From Desulfuromonadaceae bacterium (GTDB lineage: Bacteria; Desulfobacterota; Desulfuromonadia; Geobacterales; Pseudopelobacteraceae): a stretch of DNA of 64,000 nucleotides. This document shows, piece after piece, positions 5,899 to 18,326 of the stretch. A model generated the notes under the pieces. That model was not told the origin of the DNA and ran no database searches. It worked only from the letters and a program-made list of their open reading frames with translations. The number at the start of each line of letters is the position of its first letter. The first letter of the stretch is position 1. The DNA is taken from NCBI GenBank assembly GCA_028712075.1, contig JAQTQX010000018.1, positions 1 to 64,000 of the forward strand, given 5' to 3'. The position numbers and the translations under genes were made by a program.

Positions 5899-8800
5899 TC
5901 AATGTCCGCCGTCCTGTGAATTTTCTTCAAATGCAGCGGCCATTGCATCGTCGCCGCTCAAGCCGGCCGCCTTCGCCCGTTCAAGCGCCTGCAGCACCCG
6001 CTTGTAATCAATCGGCATGACTTTCACAAAACGGGTCAAGGTCTGCTGCCAGCTTATCAGCATCATCTGCGCCCGGGAACTCCCGGTGCATTCGGCATGT
6101 TTCTCAATCATTGCCTTGAGTGTGGCGGCGTCAGAGTCGTCAAGCGGCTCGAGGGCAGCCATTTCGGTATTGCAGCGGGAGGTAAAATCATCATATTCGT
6201 CAAATACGTAGGCGATGCCGCCACTCATGCCGGCGGCAAAGTTGCGCCCTGTTTTGCCGAGAATTGCCACGATGCCACCGGTCATATATTCGCACCCGTG
6301 ATCACCCACTCCTTCAACGACGGCATTCACACCGGAATTTCGTACGCAGAAGCGTTCTCCGACCATGCCACGGATGTATGCTGTCCCGCCGGTTGCACCG
6401 TAAAATGCGACATTACCGGCAATGATGTTCTCTTCCGCCTTGAACGGAGAGCCTGCCGGGGGATATACGATGATTGTGCCGCCGCTGAGTCCTTTACCGA
6501 GATAATCATTGGCATCTCCGGACAGTTTCATGGTGATGCCGCGTGGGATAAATGCCCCGAAGCTCTGCCCGGCAGAGCCGTTGAATGTGAGCTGAACCGT
6601 GTTGTCAGGAAGGCCTGCCGCCCCGTATTTTCTGGTGATTTCGTTACCGATAATGGTTCCCACGACCCGGTCAATGTTGGTGATCGACAGTTCGGCGCTC
6701 ACCGCCTCGCCCCGCTCGATTGCCGGCTGGCAGATATCGAGCAGCTTTGACATATCGATCGATTTTTCCAGGCCATGATCCTGCTGTTCGGAACAATACC
6801 GGCCAACAGTCAGCGGTATTTTTGGCTGGTACAGGATGTTGGAGAAATCAAGCCCGGCTGTTTTCCCGTGTTCAATTGCCTTGCTAGCCTCCAGTACGTC
6901 ACTGCGGCCAACCATTTCATTGAGCGTCCGAAAACCGAGCTGAGCCATAATTTCGCGTAACTCCCGGGCAACAAAGCGCATGAAGTTGACGACATACTCA
7001 GGTTTGCCGCTGAAGTTCTTGCGCAGTTCAGGGTCCTGCGTCGCCACACCGGTCGGACAGGTGTTGCTGTGGCAGACGCGCATCATGACGCAGCCAAGAG
7101 TCACCAGTGGCGCTGTGGCAAAGCCGAACTCCTCGGCGCCAAGCAGAGCGGCTATGGCAACGTCCCGCCCGGTTTTCAGCTGGCCATCTGCTTCGATGAT
7201 AATCCGGCTGCGCAGATTGTTGAGCAGCAGGGTCTGATGTGTTTCCGCCAGACCGAGTTCCCACGGCAGGCCGGCATGCTTGATACTGGAAATCGGCGAA
7301 GCACCGGTGCCGCCATCATAGCCGCTGATCAGCACGACATCGGCATGCGCCTTGGCCACACCGGCGGCAATCGTCCCGACTCCAACCTCGGAAACCAGTT
7401 TGACGCTGATACGGGCGCGCCGGTTGGCATTTTTCAGGTCGTGAATAAGCTCCGCCAGATCCTCGATGGAGTAGATGTCATGATGCGGCGGTGGTGACAC
7501 CAGCCCGACGCCCGGAGTCGTGTGACGGGTTTTGGCAATCCAGGGGTAGACCTTGTGGCCTGGAAGTTCACCACCCTCGCCAGGTTTGGCACCCTGAGCC
7601 ATCTTGATCTGCAGTTCGCCGGCGTTTGACAGATATTCACTGGTGACGCCAAAACGTCCCGAGGCCACCTGTTTTATGTTGCTGTTCTTGGAATCGCCCA
7701 ATTCGTTGGTCCAGGTAAAGCGCTCGGGGTCCTCGCCACCTTCGCCGGTGTTTGATCTGCCGCCGATTCGGTTCATGGCGATGGCGAGCGTTTCGTGCGC
7801 TTCCTTGCTGATGGAACCGTAGGACATGGCGCCGGTCTTGAAGCGTTTCATGATGGATTCGACCGGCTCGACTTCCTCAAGCGGAACGGAGGGGATGTTG
7901 TCCTTGAAAGCAAGTAGTCCGCGCAGGGTGTAGTGACGCTCGCTCTGCTCGTCAATAAGTGAGGAGAACGTCTTGAATTCCTTGTAATCATCCGTCCGGG
8001 TTGCTTTCTGCAGAGCGGTGATGGTCAACGGATTATACTGATGTTCCTCCCCGTCTTTACGCCATCGGTACACGCCGCCGGGAGGGAGCACACCGTCCGG
8101 GGCAACCCGTGTCGGGTAGGCTCGTGCGTGCCGTTCCATCAATTCACGGGCGATGCCGTCAATATCTGTTCCGCCGATACGTGACGGGGTCAAGGTGAAA
8201 TATCGGTCAATGACACTTTGATGCAGGCCAACCGCCTCAAAGATCTGGGCGCCACGGTAGCTCTGCACGGTCGAAATCCCCATTTTGGCCATTGTCTTGA
8301 CAACGCCCTTGATGGCAGCCTTGGTGAAATTGTAGACCGCTTTCCTGTGATCGAGACCGGGCAGCATTCCCTGCAGAATCATGTCATCAAGCGATTCGAA
8401 GGCAAGATACGGATTGATGGCGTTGACGCCATAGCCGAGCAGCACCGCAAAATGGTGAACTTCGCGCGGCTCTCCTGATTCCAGAATCAGCGACACTAAT
8501 GTGCGTGTGCCGCTGGCAACCAGATGGTGGTGCAAACCTGAAACCGCCAGCAGTGCAGGAACTGCAGCATACTCGCTGTCGACTCCGCGATCGGAAAGGA
8601 TCAGGAGATTGCTCCCTGCGTCAATTGCGACGTCAGCTGCCGCAAAGAGCGCTTCCAGGCCACGCTCCATTCCCGCAGCGCCTCTCGATACCGGAAAGAG
8701 GAGCGGCAACGTTGCCGCTTTGAAATCAGGGCTGTCTATCTGGCGCAGTTTTTCCAGTTCCTGATTACAGAGTAGAGGGCTTTGAAGTTTGATCCTCCGG

Positions 8801-10473
8801 GCATTGGCTGCAGTCGGTTCCAGAAGATTACCCTCCGAACCAATCAGCGCGATGGTGGAGGTGACAATTTCTTCACGGATCGGGTCGATCGGCGGATTGG
8901 TAACCTGGGCGAACAGTTGCTTGAAATAATTGTATAGCAGCTGGTTCTGGCCGGATAACACAGCAAGCGGTGTATCGGTTCCCATCGAGCCGAGCGGCTG
9001 GATGCCGTCACGGGCCATTGGCCCGAGAACCGCTTGCTGGTCTTCATACGTATAGCCGAAGGCCATTTGACGCTGGGTCAGACTTTCCGGGTCAGGAAAA
9101 GGCATGTCCGTGGGATACGGCAGGTCCTCAAGCAGAACAAGATTTTCCTTGAGCCATCGCCCATACGGGTTGGCAAATGCCAGTTCCCGCTTGATCTCCT
9201 CATCGGGTACGATGCGTCCCTGTTCGGTATCAACCAGAAACATTTGTCCCGGCTGGAGACGCCCTTTTTTCACCACGCGTTCCGGATCGATTGTAAGGAC
9301 TCCTGCTTCGGACGCCATGATGACCAGGTCATCGCTGGTAATGTAGTAGCGTGACGGGCGCAGGCCGTTCCGGTCAAGTACCGCCCCGATACTGCGGCCA
9401 TCGGTAAAGGCAAGTGCCGCTGGGCCATCCCACGGCGCGATAAGGCATGAGTGGTATTCATAGAACGCCCGCTTTTCTTCACTCATTTCAGTATGGTTTT
9501 CCCACGGCTCAGGAACCATCATCATGATCGCATGCGGAAGTGAACGCCCACTCATGACCAGCAGTTCGAGACAATTATCGAACATACCGGAGTCGGAGCC
9601 GTTGGTGTTGATGATCGGCAGCACCTTCTTGATGTCGTCGCCGAACAGCACACTGGTAATATGGTTCTGACGGGCATTCATCCAGTTGACGTTGCCGCGC
9701 AGGGTGTTGATTTCACCGTTGTGAGCAAGATAGCGGTACGGATGGGCACGGTCCCAACTGGGGAAAGTATTGGTGGAAAAGCGTGAATGCACCAGGGCAA
9801 TGGCGCTCTCCATTAAGGGATCGCGCAGCTCCGGGAAATACTGGTCCACCTGAACCGGCATAAGCATCCCTTTGTATATTATCGTCCGGGTCGAAAGGCT
9901 GCAGACGTACCACTGGTCATCAACCTCGGCGCGCCGGATTTCATTGGTGGCCCGCTGGTTTATGACGTACAGCTTGCGGCTGAACGCCTGCTCGTCAGCA
10001 CAGCTGGCCGGGCATTTAAGGAGCAGTTGCCGTACCATCGGTTCACCGGACCAGGCGGTATTGCCCAGGGAAGAGTTGTCGGTCGGCACATTTCTCCAAC
10101 CAAGGAGTTCCACCCCCTCTTCGACCAGAATTTTTTCCAGGATATGCCGGGCGGCATTGCGCTCCGTCGCTTTCTGCGATGTAAAGACCATGCCGGCCGC
10201 ATATTTGAATGGTGCGGGGAGCTCGATGCCGAGTGGCGTGCAGACCGAACGGAGAAAACTGTCCGGCATCTGTATGAGGATTCCGGCACCGTCTCCGGTA
10301 TTCGGTTCACTGCCGGTAGCGCCACGGTGATCAAGATTGACGAGAACTTCAAGCGCCTGGCTGACGATCTTGTGGGATTTATTCCCTTTCATGTTTACGA
10401 TAAAGCCGACACCGCAGGCATCGTGCTCGAATTGTGGGTCGTAAAGACCCTGTTTCACGGGTGGTTTTTTCAT
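5899..10473 (-). CDS. gltB: Glutamate synthase large subunit
   Basis: The alpha subunit, 1524 residues, normal length for the bacterial NADPH enzyme. Cys20 in HDACGVGF is the predicted N-terminal nucleophile of the class II glutaminase domain after removal of a short propeptide. The FMN-binding synthase domain shows [10 protein letters not shown] and the 3Fe-4S cluster motif [15 protein letters not shown], followed by the C-terminal beta-helix domain ([18 protein letters not shown]). With gltD it forms the main ammonium-assimilation route together with glutamine synthetase. A sigma-54-like promoter lies about 60 bp upstream, consistent with nitrogen control. Large antisense open frames here are shadows. 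Confidence 0.96.
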
Positions 10474-11785: not shown

Positions 11786-13339
11786 TTACTGCGGCAGTGA
11801 AAAATAAAAATTCGCGCCCTTGTCCAATTCTCCCTCGCCCCACACCCTTCCGCCATGCCGGTTGATGATGCGCTGAACGGTGGCAAGGCCGATGCCGGTC
11901 CCTTCAAATTCTTCCTGTGAGTGCAGGCGCTGAAAAACACCGAAGAGTTTACCGGCGTACTTCATATCAAAACCGACCCCGTTATCTTCGACAACGAAGA
12001 CAATGTCGCTATTTTCTTCGTGCGCACTGACGGAGATGCGAGCGGTTTCCCGCGACCTGGTATACTTCACCGCGTTCCCCAGCAGATTGGCCCAGACTTG
12101 GCGCAGCAGTACCGAATCTCCCTTTACAGGGGGCAGTTCCCCAATCACCCATTCGATCATGCGATCGGAAGCGCTCTCCCGAACCATTGTGAGCACATCT
12201 TTGAGTAGCTGGTTCATATCCACCTGTTCGTGGCACATTTCGGCCCGGCCGGTTCGTGAAAACTGCAGCAGGTCGTCAATCAGCGTCCCCATTTGACGGG
12301 CTGAAGAGGCAATAGTATCAACATAATGCACGCCCTTATCGCTCAGGCCGTCACGGCAGCGGGATATCAGCAGATCAACGTAGCCGTCAATATGCCGCAA
12401 TGGAGCGCGCAAATCGTGCGATACGGAATAGCAGAAGGCCTCCAGTTCACTGTTGGCAGATTCCAATTGAGCAGTGCGCTCAATCACCCGCTGCTCCAGC
12501 TCGATATTCAGCCGATGAATTTCATCCTTGGTTTGTTTGTGCTCAATAATCTCGGCTTCAAGTGAGGCGGTTTTGTCACTGACAAGGATTTTCAAGCGTC
12601 TGTTGAAAAAGAACAGGAGAAACGTCGCTGCAATTCCGACCGAAAGAGAGCTGGTTAGAATATGGACGGTTGATATATCATCATTGATCGGCATCTTGAT
12701 CGACTCAATTGCCCGAAACACGCCGGTTTTTTCGTTAAAACCCCCTTCGCCCGGATAGAGTGCCTGAAGCCCTGGCGGCGCTTCCTCCCTTTTTCCATGG
12801 CATTTAAGGCAATTAGCATCAGTTTCCAGAAAAGGGATCGCGTAATACAGGTATTTTTTCCCATCAACGCTTATGACGTCCCTGTACTCATGCACATCCC
12901 TGTTCTCATTGAACATCTTGATCAGTGCGGCCTCGGACGGATCGGCTAAGTTAACCGGATTGCGAGGATTGACGGAGGCCATTTTGTAATATACTTCGGG
13001 GAGCCCCGCCTTTTTCATCTCTTCATTATAAAAAGCATGCATATTCCGGACGATGAAGGAGGATGAAAATATTTCGGGAGAGTAGAATTGTTGCGATACG
13101 GCACCATTGTCGCGTGCCTTGTAGAAGGTGGGGTGCATGATTTTCTGGATGTAATGGTGCAGTCCGCGGTGAGAAAAGAGGACATTTCTGATTTTGTCCT
13201 CGGCATCTTTCAAAAAAAAAGCCGATAATGCGTAATAGATGACAACAGCTACCGCGAATGTAGTTACAACAGCAAACAGGAGCGGTTTGAAAAAACGCCG
13301 CACTGTTTCTGGGCGATGACTTTTGCTGTCAATATCCAT
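11786..13339 (-). CDS. Heme-binding (DUF3365) membrane histidine kinase
   Basis: A 517-residue sensor kinase. Membrane helices at about 18-42 and 224-246 flank a periplasmic DUF3365/Tll0287-like domain that contains a c-type heme motif, CLKCH at 177-181. A coiled coil (about 255-305) leads to HisKA with His308 in SHDLRAPLRHID, then HATPase_c (NLLGNAVKYT, DNGVGFD, GTGIGLATV). The heme should be attached in the periplasm and may sense redox state or a gaseous ligand. The start at 13339 has GGAG six bases upstream and is preferred over 13366. It is the middle gene of a three-gene signalling operon. Confidence 0.88.
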   Translation of the reverse strand: MDIDSKSHRPETVRRFFKPLLFAVVTTFAVAVVIYYALSAFFLKDAEDKIRNVLFSHRGLHHYIQKIMHPTFYKARDNGAVSQQFYSPEIFSSSFIVRNMHAFYNEEMKKAGLPEVYYKMASVNPRNPVNLADPSEAALIKMFNENRDVHEYRDVISVDGKKYLYYAIPFLETDANCLKCHGKREEAPPGLQALYPGEGGFNEKTGVFRAIESIKMPINDDISTVHILTSSLSVGIAATFLLFFFNRRLKILVSDKTASLEAEIIEHKQTKDEIHRLNIELEQRVIERTAQLESANSELEAFCYSVSHDLRAPLRHIDGYVDLLISRCRDGLSDKGVHYVDTIASSARQMGTLIDDLLQFSRTGRAEMCHEQVDMNQLLKDVLTMVRESASDRMIEWVIGELPPVKGDSVLLRQVWANLLGNAVKYTRSRETARISVSAHEENSDIVFVVEDNGVGFDMKYAGKLFGVFQRLHSQEEFEGTGIGLATVQRIINRHGGRVWGEGELDKGANFYFSLPQ

Positions 13340-13395
13340 AGCAACTCCAATATTGGAAAACAGCACTGACGCCAGGTCACAATCAAAAATCCAGA

Positions 13396-15527: not shown

Positions 15528-16346
15528 ATGAATATGGCGACAATCGATGGCATTACACTATCTCTTGCCGGACCGGTGGAGCTGAACCTGCGCTGGGTTG
15601 GTCAGGAAGATCTGCTGACGCAGCTTCTGGCGGCCTGGATGGTGATTGACGAGCGGGATCTTCCGTTTAATCCGCGTCTGGTTGGCAAGCCGGGCGTCGG
15701 CAAAACAACTCTTGCGTACGCTGCGGCAAAACGCTTGGGGCGACCGGTCTATCTTTTTCAGGCCACCATGGATACCCGCCCTGAAGATCTGATTGTAACT
15801 CCGGTGATCGGTCCTGATGCTAAGATCCAGTATGCCGCTTCTTCGCTGGTATCTGCAATGCTGACGGGAGGGGTACTGATTCTCGATGAAGGGAACCGCA
15901 TGAGCGAAAAGGCCTGGGCATCCCTGGCGCCCCTTCTGGATGACCGTCGCTATGTTGAGTCGCTTGTGACCGGCCTGCGCATCCCGGCTTCCCGGGATTT
16001 CCGGATTGTGGTCACCATGAACGAGGATTCCTCAACATTCGAGATTCCGGAATATATTCACTCACGACTGCAGCCGCAGATATATATCGATTTTCCCGAG
16101 GCTGACGAGGAGTTGATTATTCTCAAGGAAAACCTGCCGTTTGCCGACAATGACATACTGCAGTATGTGGTCGCCTTTCTGCAGCGCGCTCATGCCGCCG
16201 ATGAGCTCTACTCTGTGCGGGACGGCATCAATATTGCCCGTTATGCGCTCAAGATGTCTGCTGCCGGCAGCACACCGGCAACGGAACTGTTGCGGCTTGC
16301 CATGATGCGTATCCTCGGCAGCGAAGCGCTCCACTACCTCGACTGA
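15528..16346 (+). CDS. MoxR/CbbQ-type AAA+ ATPase
   Basis: A 272-residue AAA+ ATPase of the MoxR group. Walker A is GKPGVGKTT (53-61), Walker B is VLILDEGNRM (Asp120, Glu121), sensor 1 is VVTMNED (Asn165), and a likely arginine finger lies in EYIHSRL. MoxR proteins act as chaperone-like motors, normally with a VWA-domain partner. Here no VWA gene is adjacent; instead a 658-residue TraB/EreA-like protein starts three bases after the stop, so the two are surely co-translated. Resembles the ATPases found with DUF5682-type proteins. Target unknown. Confidence 0.82.
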   Translation: MNMATIDGITLSLAGPVELNLRWVGQEDLLTQLLAAWMVIDERDLPFNPRLVGKPGVGKTTLAYAAAKRLGRPVYLFQATMDTRPEDLIVTPVIGPDAKIQYAASSLVSAMLTGGVLILDEGNRMSEKAWASLAPLLDDRRYVESLVTGLRIPASRDFRIVVTMNEDSSTFEIPEYIHSRLQPQIYIDFPEADEELIILKENLPFADNDILQYVVAFLQRAHAADELYSVRDGINIARYALKMSAAGSTPATELLRLAMMRILGSEALHYLD

Positions 16347-16349
16347 CCC

Positions 16350-18326
16350 ATGCCGCAGCGCCTCTATCTGGAAACATTCGGTTCGATTCATGCCTTGCCG
16401 ATACTGCATTACCGAATGGAGTGCGCCCAGTTGGTACGCATGGCTGTTCGTCAACTGCGTCCCGATGCTATTGCCATTGAGCTCCCGACAACGGTGGAGG
16501 CACCGTTTCTGAGGGGGGTGCGCCGCCTGCCGCAGATTTCCGCCATCAGCTATCAGGCAGAGTATTTGAAAGGTGGGGGAGGGGGCAAAGGTGCCACGGT
16601 CTATCTGCTGACAGAGCCCGCAGACCCGCTGGTAGAAGCGGCGCGGCTGGCACTTGAGCTGCAGCTGCCGCTCCATTTCGTTGATGTAGATACCGACAGC
16701 TATCCCCAGCATCACGAGCCGCTTCCCGATTCCTACAGCATCTGCCGCATCGGTCTAGCGGCGTATTACCGTGCCTACCGGGCCGCGTCGGTCGGGCAAA
16801 CCCCCTGCTGTGAGGATCAGCGCCGCGAACAGGGGATGGCCTACCGTCTGCAAACAGTGGCACAAAATCACCAGCGCATCCTGTTTGTCTGCGGGATGGC
16901 GCATCTTGAGCGGATCAAGGGGCTGTATGCATTACCACAGGCCGCGCCACTGGAGCGGGTCAGGCGCGAAGGGATCAGCATCTTCAATCTGCATCCTGAT
17001 TCATGTCGGGAAATCCTTGCGGAATTTCCCTTTCTTTCCGCGGTCTATGAATACCGTCGCGGCCCACTTCCGGATGAGCCTGAAGAGAGCGGCGACGGCC
17101 TGCGCAAACGCTTCCATGCCCTTGAGCTGATTAAGGGGGGCAGACAGGATCTTTCCGAAGAACAACTACTGGATAACGCCATTCAGAGAACCGCGCGGCA
17201 TACCGGGTCCGAGGGAACTTTTCCCGATCGCCAGCGGATTATGTACCGCCTGTTCTTTGAAACGTGCCGGCACTATCGCCAGGAAACCGGTGAACCGGTG
17301 CATATCTGGCAGAAACGGGCTTTTTTCCGTTTTGCCCGGAATTACGCAGTGCAGGGAGGTATGCTGCTCCCGGACCTGTTCCAGCTCCTGGTTGCAGCGA
17401 GAGGGTGCATTGATGATAATTTTGCCTATGCATTCTGCCGATTGGCAACGTGCTATCCCTGGCAGTCAGCGTCGAGTGATCTCGCCACGATCAGTATTTC
17501 TCCGGAGGAAATATGGGGAGGCAGTCGCCACATCCGTTTCCGGCCACGGCAGAAACGGCACAAGGGGCTTTCGCAGCTTGGACTGCTCAAACGAAAACGG
17601 GAAAAGCGGACGGGTGAGTGGCTGGAGGGGTTTGACGATCCGTCTATCTGCTCGTATCCCCCTGAGGATATTGCCATAGAGGAATATGGGCGCTTTCTCA
17701 AGCGCAAGGGGAGCATGCAGCTTTCGGAGGAGTTGAGCCGCAGTGAGAAGTTCAGCACCTCGCTGCTTGATGGCATTGATATGCGGGAAACGGTGCGCAA
17801 CCTTCACGAAGGGGCAATCTATGTCCGGGAACAGCAGCGTGCCAAGGGGGGTGTTGGCTGCCTCGTGGTGATATTTGACGATGATCGCCGTACGGAGCGG
17901 TATCCTTACCGCATGACCTGGCTGGGGGAGCACGAACAGGAATCGGATATGGCTTTTTACGCCACCGATCCGGCTGAAAACATCGTCGGACCAGGTATCT
18001 GTCGTTGCGAATACGGCGGTTTCATGCTCTCGTATCCCCCCCGGCGCATGGCGGATGTCTGGCACGATCCGGATTACCGCATGTCTGCAACAAGGGCGGA
18101 AGTGCTGTTGCTGGCCGCACTGGACTATTCAATCGAGAAGCATGTTGTGTATGTAGCGGCAAAGCCCCCCCGCAGCATGTTCAAACAGATCGCCGCACGC
18201 CTCGACCGGAAAATTGTCTATATCCCGCTTGGCTCACTCTCCCCGCACAAACTAAAGCAGCTTCGGGTGCTGCATATCCTGTCCGGCAAGGATAAGCGTG
18301 AACTGGCAAAGGATTACATCTGGTAG
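16350..18326 (+). CDS. TraB/EreA-like protein with novel C-terminal region, MoxR partner
   Basis: A 658-residue protein I cannot name with certainty. The N-terminal 200 residues look like the TraB/EreA/ChaN superfamily, as in DUF5682: RPDAIAIELPTTVE (residues 38-51, Glu44), a strand-helix region with LHFVDVDTD, and ILFVCGMAHLERI near 177-189 with a conserved-type His. The middle (about 230-480) is helical and Arg-rich. The C-terminal 160 residues form a separate unrecognised domain (GCLVVIFDDD, VVYVAAKPPRS, KIVYIPLGSL). No signal peptide is seen. It is tightly coupled to the MoxR ATPase upstream and is probably its substrate-handling partner. Confidence 0.7.
   Translation: MPQRLYLETFGSIHALPILHYRMECAQLVRMAVRQLRPDAIAIELPTTVEAPFLRGVRRLPQISAISYQAEYLKGGGGGKGATVYLLTEPADPLVEAARLALELQLPLHFVDVDTDSYPQHHEPLPDSYSICRIGLAAYYRAYRAASVGQTPCCEDQRREQGMAYRLQTVAQNHQRILFVCGMAHLERIKGLYALPQAAPLERVRREGISIFNLHPDSCREILAEFPFLSAVYEYRRGPLPDEPEESGDGLRKRFHALELIKGGRQDLSEEQLLDNAIQRTARHTGSEGTFPDRQRIMYRLFFETCRHYRQETGEPVHIWQKRAFFRFARNYAVQGGMLLPDLFQLLVAARGCIDDNFAYAFCRLATCYPWQSASSDLATISISPEEIWGGSRHIRFRPRQKRHKGLSQLGLLKRKREKRTGEWLEGFDDPSICSYPPEDIAIEEYGRFLKRKGSMQLSEELSRSEKFSTSLLDGIDMRETVRNLHEGAIYVREQQRAKGGVGCLVVIFDDDRRTERYPYRMTWLGEHEQESDMAFYATDPAENIVGPGICRCEYGGFMLSYPPRRMADVWHDPDYRMSATRAEVLLLAALDYSIEKHVVYVAAKPPRSMFKQIAARLDRKIVYIPLGSLSPHKLKQLRVLHILSGKDKRELAKDYIW

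Follow-up and report, generated by a model that had tools for sequence, protein, structure and literature searches.

A conserved gene pair of a MoxR-type ATPase and a TraB/EreA-like protein with no associated VWA gene

The two genes and their products

The DNA analysed (the window) comprises positions 1 to 64,000 of the forward strand of contig JAQTQX010000018.1 from a Desulfuromonadaceae bacterium (GCA_028712075.1). Its open reading frames, when re-derived, include two neighbouring genes encoded on the plus strand, the stop of the first being separated by 3 bp from the start of the second; both the sizes of the products (272 and 658 amino acids) and the spacing are those given by an earlier, sequence-only reading of this DNA. 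The second product is referred to below as P2.

15528..16346, plus strand: AAA+ ATPase (P0001) of the MoxR/NorQ/midasin group, 272 amino acids, from its Pfam match
Within the ATPase, motifs named by inspection: Walker A GKPGVGKT at residues 53-60, Walker B D120-E121, sensor 1 N165, arginine finger R180, sensor 2 R231-D232
16350..18326, plus strand: P2, the 658-amino-acid partner, with a TraB-like part, a helical middle and a conserved C-terminal domain, from the open reading frame, homologues and alignment
16371..17069, plus strand: P2 residues 8-240, TraB/EreA (TIKI)-like domain, from hhalign and invariant residues
17097..17624, plus strand: P2 residues 250-425, mainly helical middle with DRQR, FARNYA, AARGCxDDNFAY and YPWQ motifs, from predicted secondary structure
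17607..18323, plus strand: P2 residues 420-658, unrecognised C-terminal domain, from conservation and the structural model

The MoxR-type identity proposed for the first protein is borne out by its Pfam matches to AAA_5 (5e-20) and AAA_3 (1.7e-7), both of which lie above cut-off, and the solved structures closest to it are those of midasin (1e-17) and NorQ (6e-8). Across 91 relatives the residues of its catalytic motifs are conserved and, judged by motifs and profile together, the protein is a member of the MoxR or AAA_5-type group of AAA+ ATPases; comparison with PADLOC returned weak generic ATPase matches only. Upstream of the ATPase gene the window encodes a response regulator, a PAS hybrid kinase and, next to them, a histidine kinase whose sensor domain is Tll0287-like (window 11786-13366).

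Taken alone, the P2 of the window gives a marginal match to TraB (14 bits, E=0.048, under the Pfam TraB cut-off) and scores 9.9 bits against DUF5682 (PF18934), whose curated cut-off is 26, and it has no match in NCBIfam, PADLOC or PHROGs. In an alignment of 73 P2 sequences, 37 members match DUF5682 (best 5e-10) and six match TraB, and the N-terminal profile derived from it aligns by hhalign with a genuine TraB-family protein (L153) at E=3e-7 and with YehM-type DUF5682 at E=6e-7, all unrelated controls remaining at E of at least 0.04. The TraB/EreA-like N-terminus, which the sequence-only reading had recognised from Glu44 and from GMAHLERI (182-189), both found at the positions it gave, is thus marginal when seen from the window protein but solid when seen from the 73-sequence profile. 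H20, E44, D112, R159, E160, G182 and H185 are invariant in these 73 sequences, the identity of which falls to 41%. In the TraB alignment H20 lies on the histidine of GTxH, E44 on the glutamate of ELD, R159-E160 on Arg-Asp and G182xxH185 on GxGH, so that the His, Glu, Arg-Glu and GxxH positions match those of TraB/PrgY/GumN proteins, of EreA (erythromycin esterase) and of TIKI peptidases. By profile similarity and conserved positions, residues 8-240 belong to the TraB/EreA/TIKI superfamily; P2 nevertheless differs from these proteins in being fused to two unrecognised domains, in being tied to an ATPase and in falling, by itself, below the Pfam TraB cut-off.

The full-length AlphaFold2 model of P2 has a mean pLDDT of 85 and a pTM of 0.62, and inspection of the predicted secondary structure indicates that the order of strands and helices in the N-terminal part is compatible with TIKI/EreA/ChaN. 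With the full P2 model as the query, no TIKI/EreA structure is found among the 50 Foldseek matches listed, none of which has E<0.001, and for this reason the fold assignment rests on profiles and motif order. Furthermore, the first GxxH motif takes the form P17xxH20 and lacks the Glu located in RRSP two positions ahead of the His.

The C-terminal domain is the best-conserved part of P2, its mean column identity being 67% as against 50% for the whole protein. It contains the motifs CS-x-PPED, DGID-x-RET, W-x-GEH-x-x-ESDM, GPGI, YGG and PP, and in 121 unique sequences W424, C434, S435, E439, D440, E444, G475, T481, W524, E527, E531, S532, D533, P548, Y555-G-G557, P563-P564, P607, H642 and R650 are fully or almost fully conserved, H528 being kept in 117 of them. 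Although the model of this domain is confident (pLDDT 88, pTM 0.81), it has no Pfam family and Foldseek gives no PDB or viral fold match (best E=0.4); the RNase H-like and Rossmann-like matches returned were scattered, with TM-scores below 0.25, and were not used. Likewise, the middle part has no match to YehM, VWA or SWIM proteins by profile comparison and, together with the C-terminal 240 residues, it finds nothing in Pfam, NCBIfam, PADLOC, PHROGs, the PDB sequences or two fold libraries. The C-terminus, which could not be placed from the sequence, thus stays without a match when sequence libraries, structure prediction and fold search are applied to it.

Conservation of the pair and the VWA question

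Of 395 genomes drawn evenly across the phylum of the window, 67 encode P2; within the family of the window its distribution is patchy, 41 of the 59 near-complete genomes having it. It is also found in 15 of 297 genomes from the Acidobacteriota, to which Acidobacteria bacterium Mor1 belongs, and in records that carry the labels Nitrospirota, Armatimonadetes (Armatimonadota), SAR324 and Chlamydiae (Chlamydiota). Since the distant records are mostly metagenome-assembled genomes, claims concerning any single phylum depend on binning. A plasmid of Neochlamydia carries one copy, whose annotation is simply that of a hypothetical protein, beside an "AAA family ATPase". A phage origin of P2 was considered and rejected, there being no match to phage records and two IMG/VR contigs only.

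In 99 of 138 P2 loci, a set that includes some fetched twice via different collections, an ATPase gene lies on the same strand less than 400 bp upstream of P2, and in 11 further loci unrelated genes separate the two, the ATPase gene being 0.4-9 kb upstream; the remaining 28 are mostly pieces that end near P2, but in three loci (L076, L093 and L107) no ATPase was found even though at least 3.7 kb upstream of P2 is available. Where the flank is long enough, an upstream ATPase is thus present in almost all loci. When the neighbouring open reading frames of the 80 larger loci were clustered, the ATPase and P2 proved to be each other's sole general companions, and no third common gene emerged; response-regulator proteins, which form the next cluster, occur in 21 of these loci. 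The evolutionary distances of the two proteins are correlated (r=0.89, with a permutation maximum of 0.21), the value being r=0.44 among the distant pairs only. The conservation of the pair across phyla argues that the pairing is not due to chance, and the ATPase and P2 constitute a stable two-gene module in several phyla.

A few loci depart from the common arrangement. In L059 a toxin-antitoxin-like and restriction-like set (by inspection) is found between the two genes, and in L061 the insert (6475-9972) encodes a 1166-amino-acid, SWIM-helicase-like protein with what appears by eye to be a SWIM-like zinc finger, SWIM proteins being also part of the yeh operon discussed below; the repeats in these two inserts are short tandem repeats, none of note. 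The SAR324 genome G398 has a second, divergent P2 with an adjacent ATPase (L141:4050-7275), while its first copy (L107) lacks an ATPase within 10 kb. In L154 (4367-5320) an open reading frame fuses a truncated C-terminal stretch of P2 to a GGDEF-like domain (by eye), which may be either the decayed remnant of a P2 or an artefact of assembly. An apparent fusion of the ATPase and P2 genes in L016/L087 was rejected on inspection, as the two lie in different frames.

MoxR ATPases are usually held to work with a VWA protein as co-chaperone partner. In 34 genomes with P2, the 10 kb around this gene were searched for the VWA_CoxE and VWA_2 families, and in 33 of them no such gene is present, in agreement with the sequence-only reading, which had seen no VWA partner for the pair; the exception, G287, has a weak match within this distance (E=2e-6) on the opposite strand. 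Five genomes endowed with P2 (G098, G063, G102, G309 and G100) have no VWA_CoxE or VWA_2 match anywhere. With respect to these two families the pair is therefore not a MoxR-VWA pair, there being neither an adjacent VWA gene nor a MIDAS DxSxS motif. Supply of a VWA protein from another locus was rejected on two counts, namely the five genomes just mentioned and the fact that the window's genome has no VWA_2 match and a single VWA_CoxE gene, which directly follows a 300-amino-acid MoxR gene of its own. Rejected as well was the possibility that the C-terminal domain is a degenerate VWA domain: its hhalign probability is 0.1-0.2% to YehP and CoxE, and P2 has no DxSxS. The suggestion that this domain replaces the VWA protein consequently fails as far as homology is concerned.

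A putative ATP-gated hydrolase and its alternatives

The best reading of the pair, to which we assign a probability of roughly 0.45, is that it may be a VWA-independent two-component machine in which the ATPase gates a TIKI-fold hydrolase, either a peptidase or an esterase. The ATPase would presumably form a hexameric ring, like NorQ and other MoxR proteins, and would act on or through P2, with which it would be in physical contact; the N-terminal part of P2 would provide a hydrolytic site of the TIKI/TraB-EreA fold, whereas its C-terminal domain might dock on the ring and/or hold the substrate, at the place filled by the VWA protein in other MoxR systems. Hydrolysis of ATP would then remodel the substrate, or P2 itself, so that the hydrolase can act. 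This mechanism leans by analogy on two precedents, the TIKI enzymes, which hydrolyse ester and peptide bonds through conserved His/Glu residues (PMC6254334), and the ring-pore partners of NorQD and McrBC (PMC9976466).

This proposal is supported by the close upstream ATPase in 99 of the 138 loci and the absence of any other general companion, by the persistence of the pair in the 11 loci with inserted unrelated genes, by the correlated distances of the two proteins, by the invariance of the TraB-type residues combined with intact ATPase motifs, and by the five genomes devoid of VWA_CoxE and VWA_2. It is weakened, on the other hand, by the outcome of the Foldseek search, by the P17xxH20 form of the first motif and by the three loci without ATPase; the TraB part may instead be a non-catalytic fold, or the role of the pair may be purely that of a chaperone. 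A broader proposition can be put forward tentatively, with the odds somewhat against it: the pair would exemplify a widespread, VWA-independent class of MoxR systems in which a ring ATPase drives a TIKI-fold hydrolase through an unrecognised C-terminal coupling domain, and the long form described below would have been recruited into TIR/SLOG/NACHT islands. In the same scheme, the coupling domain could possibly have a second catalytic or metal site at W-x-GEHxxESD and YGG.

The pair shares with NorQ-NorD, CbbQ-CbbO and RavA-ViaA the same broad AAA+ group and the presence of one large dedicated partner gene, and it is conceivable, even if somewhat unlikely, that it is an assembly or metal-insertion chaperone like NorQ-NorD, in which the ATPase would remodel a target complex with P2 as co-chaperone, the C-terminal domain entering the ring pore instead of a VWA protein and the TraB fold only binding the target. 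This would agree with the closeness of the ATPase to NorQ and to the VWA-linked midasin, with the high conservation of the C-terminal domain and with the fingers that MoxR partners insert into the ring pore, as in NorQD and also, without any VWA, in McrC (PMC9976466). P2, however, differs from partners of the NorD/CbbO/ViaA type in having a hydrolase-like domain and no VWA domain or MIDAS motif, its C-terminal domain being unrelated to VWA proteins; no shared neighbour gene hints at a client enzyme, and the invariance of all TraB-type active-site positions exceeds what a binding fold needs.

That the pair is a conflict system, anti-phage or stress-related, in which the ATPase would serve as threshold switch for the effector, P2, we regard as unlikely. 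One argument for it is a long form of the pair, distant from the common one, found in G131 (L151) and in G736 (L161), the latter from the genus of the window, in which P2 is about 785 amino acids long, retains the TraB-type residues and has lost the C-terminal EHxxESD motif; with two examples only, it was rejected as a common type. In both loci a TPR gene comes next. The cluster in G131 (L151:2-13000) further comprises RyR-AAA, a ThsB-like TIR protein, SLOG-TIR and another TIR protein, while in G736 (L161:2616-13999) the TPR gene is followed by cREC_REC (a cyclic-phosphate processing receiver) and two DUF4062-NACHT-TPR genes; these are conflict-type neighbourhoods. The patchy presence within one family and the plasmid-borne copy in Neochlamydia point in the same direction. 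The resemblance to MoxR-vWA ternary conflict systems (PMC7159879) consists in a MoxR ATPase combined with a large multidomain partner and, for the long form, in the TIR, SLOG, NACHT and TPR genes nearby. Yet the pair has no vWA and no VMAP-like variability, and the words TraB, EreA and DUF5682 do not occur in that paper. True conflict systems display high architectural variability (PMC7159879), whereas the architecture of the common short form is fixed, none of the genes that recur beside it is a defence gene, and its P2 is matched neither by PADLOC nor by phage records. By PADLOC and by recurrent neighbours, the short form does not belong to the known anti-phage defence proteins; as regards its neighbours, the long form is the exception. 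The persistence of the TraB-type site where the C-terminal motif is gone points to the hydrolase-like site as the core shared by the two forms.

The last comparison concerns the E. coli genes yehL-yehM-yehP-yehQ, which encode MoxR, DUF5682, VWA and SWIM proteins in a row; the sequence-only reading, starting from the occurrence of DUF5682-type proteins with MoxR and VWA genes, took the pair for such a system in divergent and reduced form. Common to the pair and the yeh genes are a MoxR-type ATPase gene immediately preceding that of a protein with a TraB/EreA-like N-terminus (E=6e-7 between P2 and YehM) and the His, Glu, Arg-Glu and GxxH positions therein. P2 itself, to judge from its score below cut-off and from the coverage by its relatives of only the first ~80-90 of the 727 profile positions, is not a DUF5682 protein, and the pair is not a YehL-M-P-Q system, as the YehL-type ATPase and the VWA and SWIM genes are wanting. 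The ATPase profile, which gives 170 bits to the ATPase that accompanies a distant relative of P2 and 18.8 to the CoxD-like MoxR of the window's genome, scores YehL at -0.9 bits, indicating another MoxR subfamily, and the middle and C-terminal parts of P2 are unrelated to YehM. In the phylum full-length DUF5682 occurs in one of 390 genomes, as against 67 of 395 for P2, the other DUF5682 matches being P2 N-termini or a TraB protein. A complete yehL-M-P-Q-type operon exists separately in the Geobacter relative G202 (L150:5606-12559), whereas G098, from the same genus, has the ATPase-P2 pair instead. The operon in G202 is preceded by a 1398-amino-acid protein that looks by eye like WGR/DUF4132, the two together spanning L150:1342-12559; in E. 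coli, yehF (PF05406) and yehI (DUF4132) lie upstream of the yehL-M-P-Q genes. The literature search retrieved no paper on MoxR, TraB and VWA together, nor any use of the family name DUF5682. Since a TraB-like domain and a MoxR-type motor are all that the two systems have in common, descent of the pair from a yehL-M-P-Q operon by loss of the VWA and SWIM genes is very unlikely.

Implications of the ATPase-P2 pair

If the proposal of an ATP-gated hydrolase is correct, the pair would represent such an enzyme built from parts of two known types and from a domain undescribed in the libraries searched. A conserved MoxR-type pair that has a TraB/EreA-type site and no VWA protein departs from the usual account of these ATPases and their co-chaperones. 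The module consists of two genes only, which makes its expression easy, and its reading as a hydrolase machine would suggest what function to seek in the E. coli DUF5682/YehM proteins.
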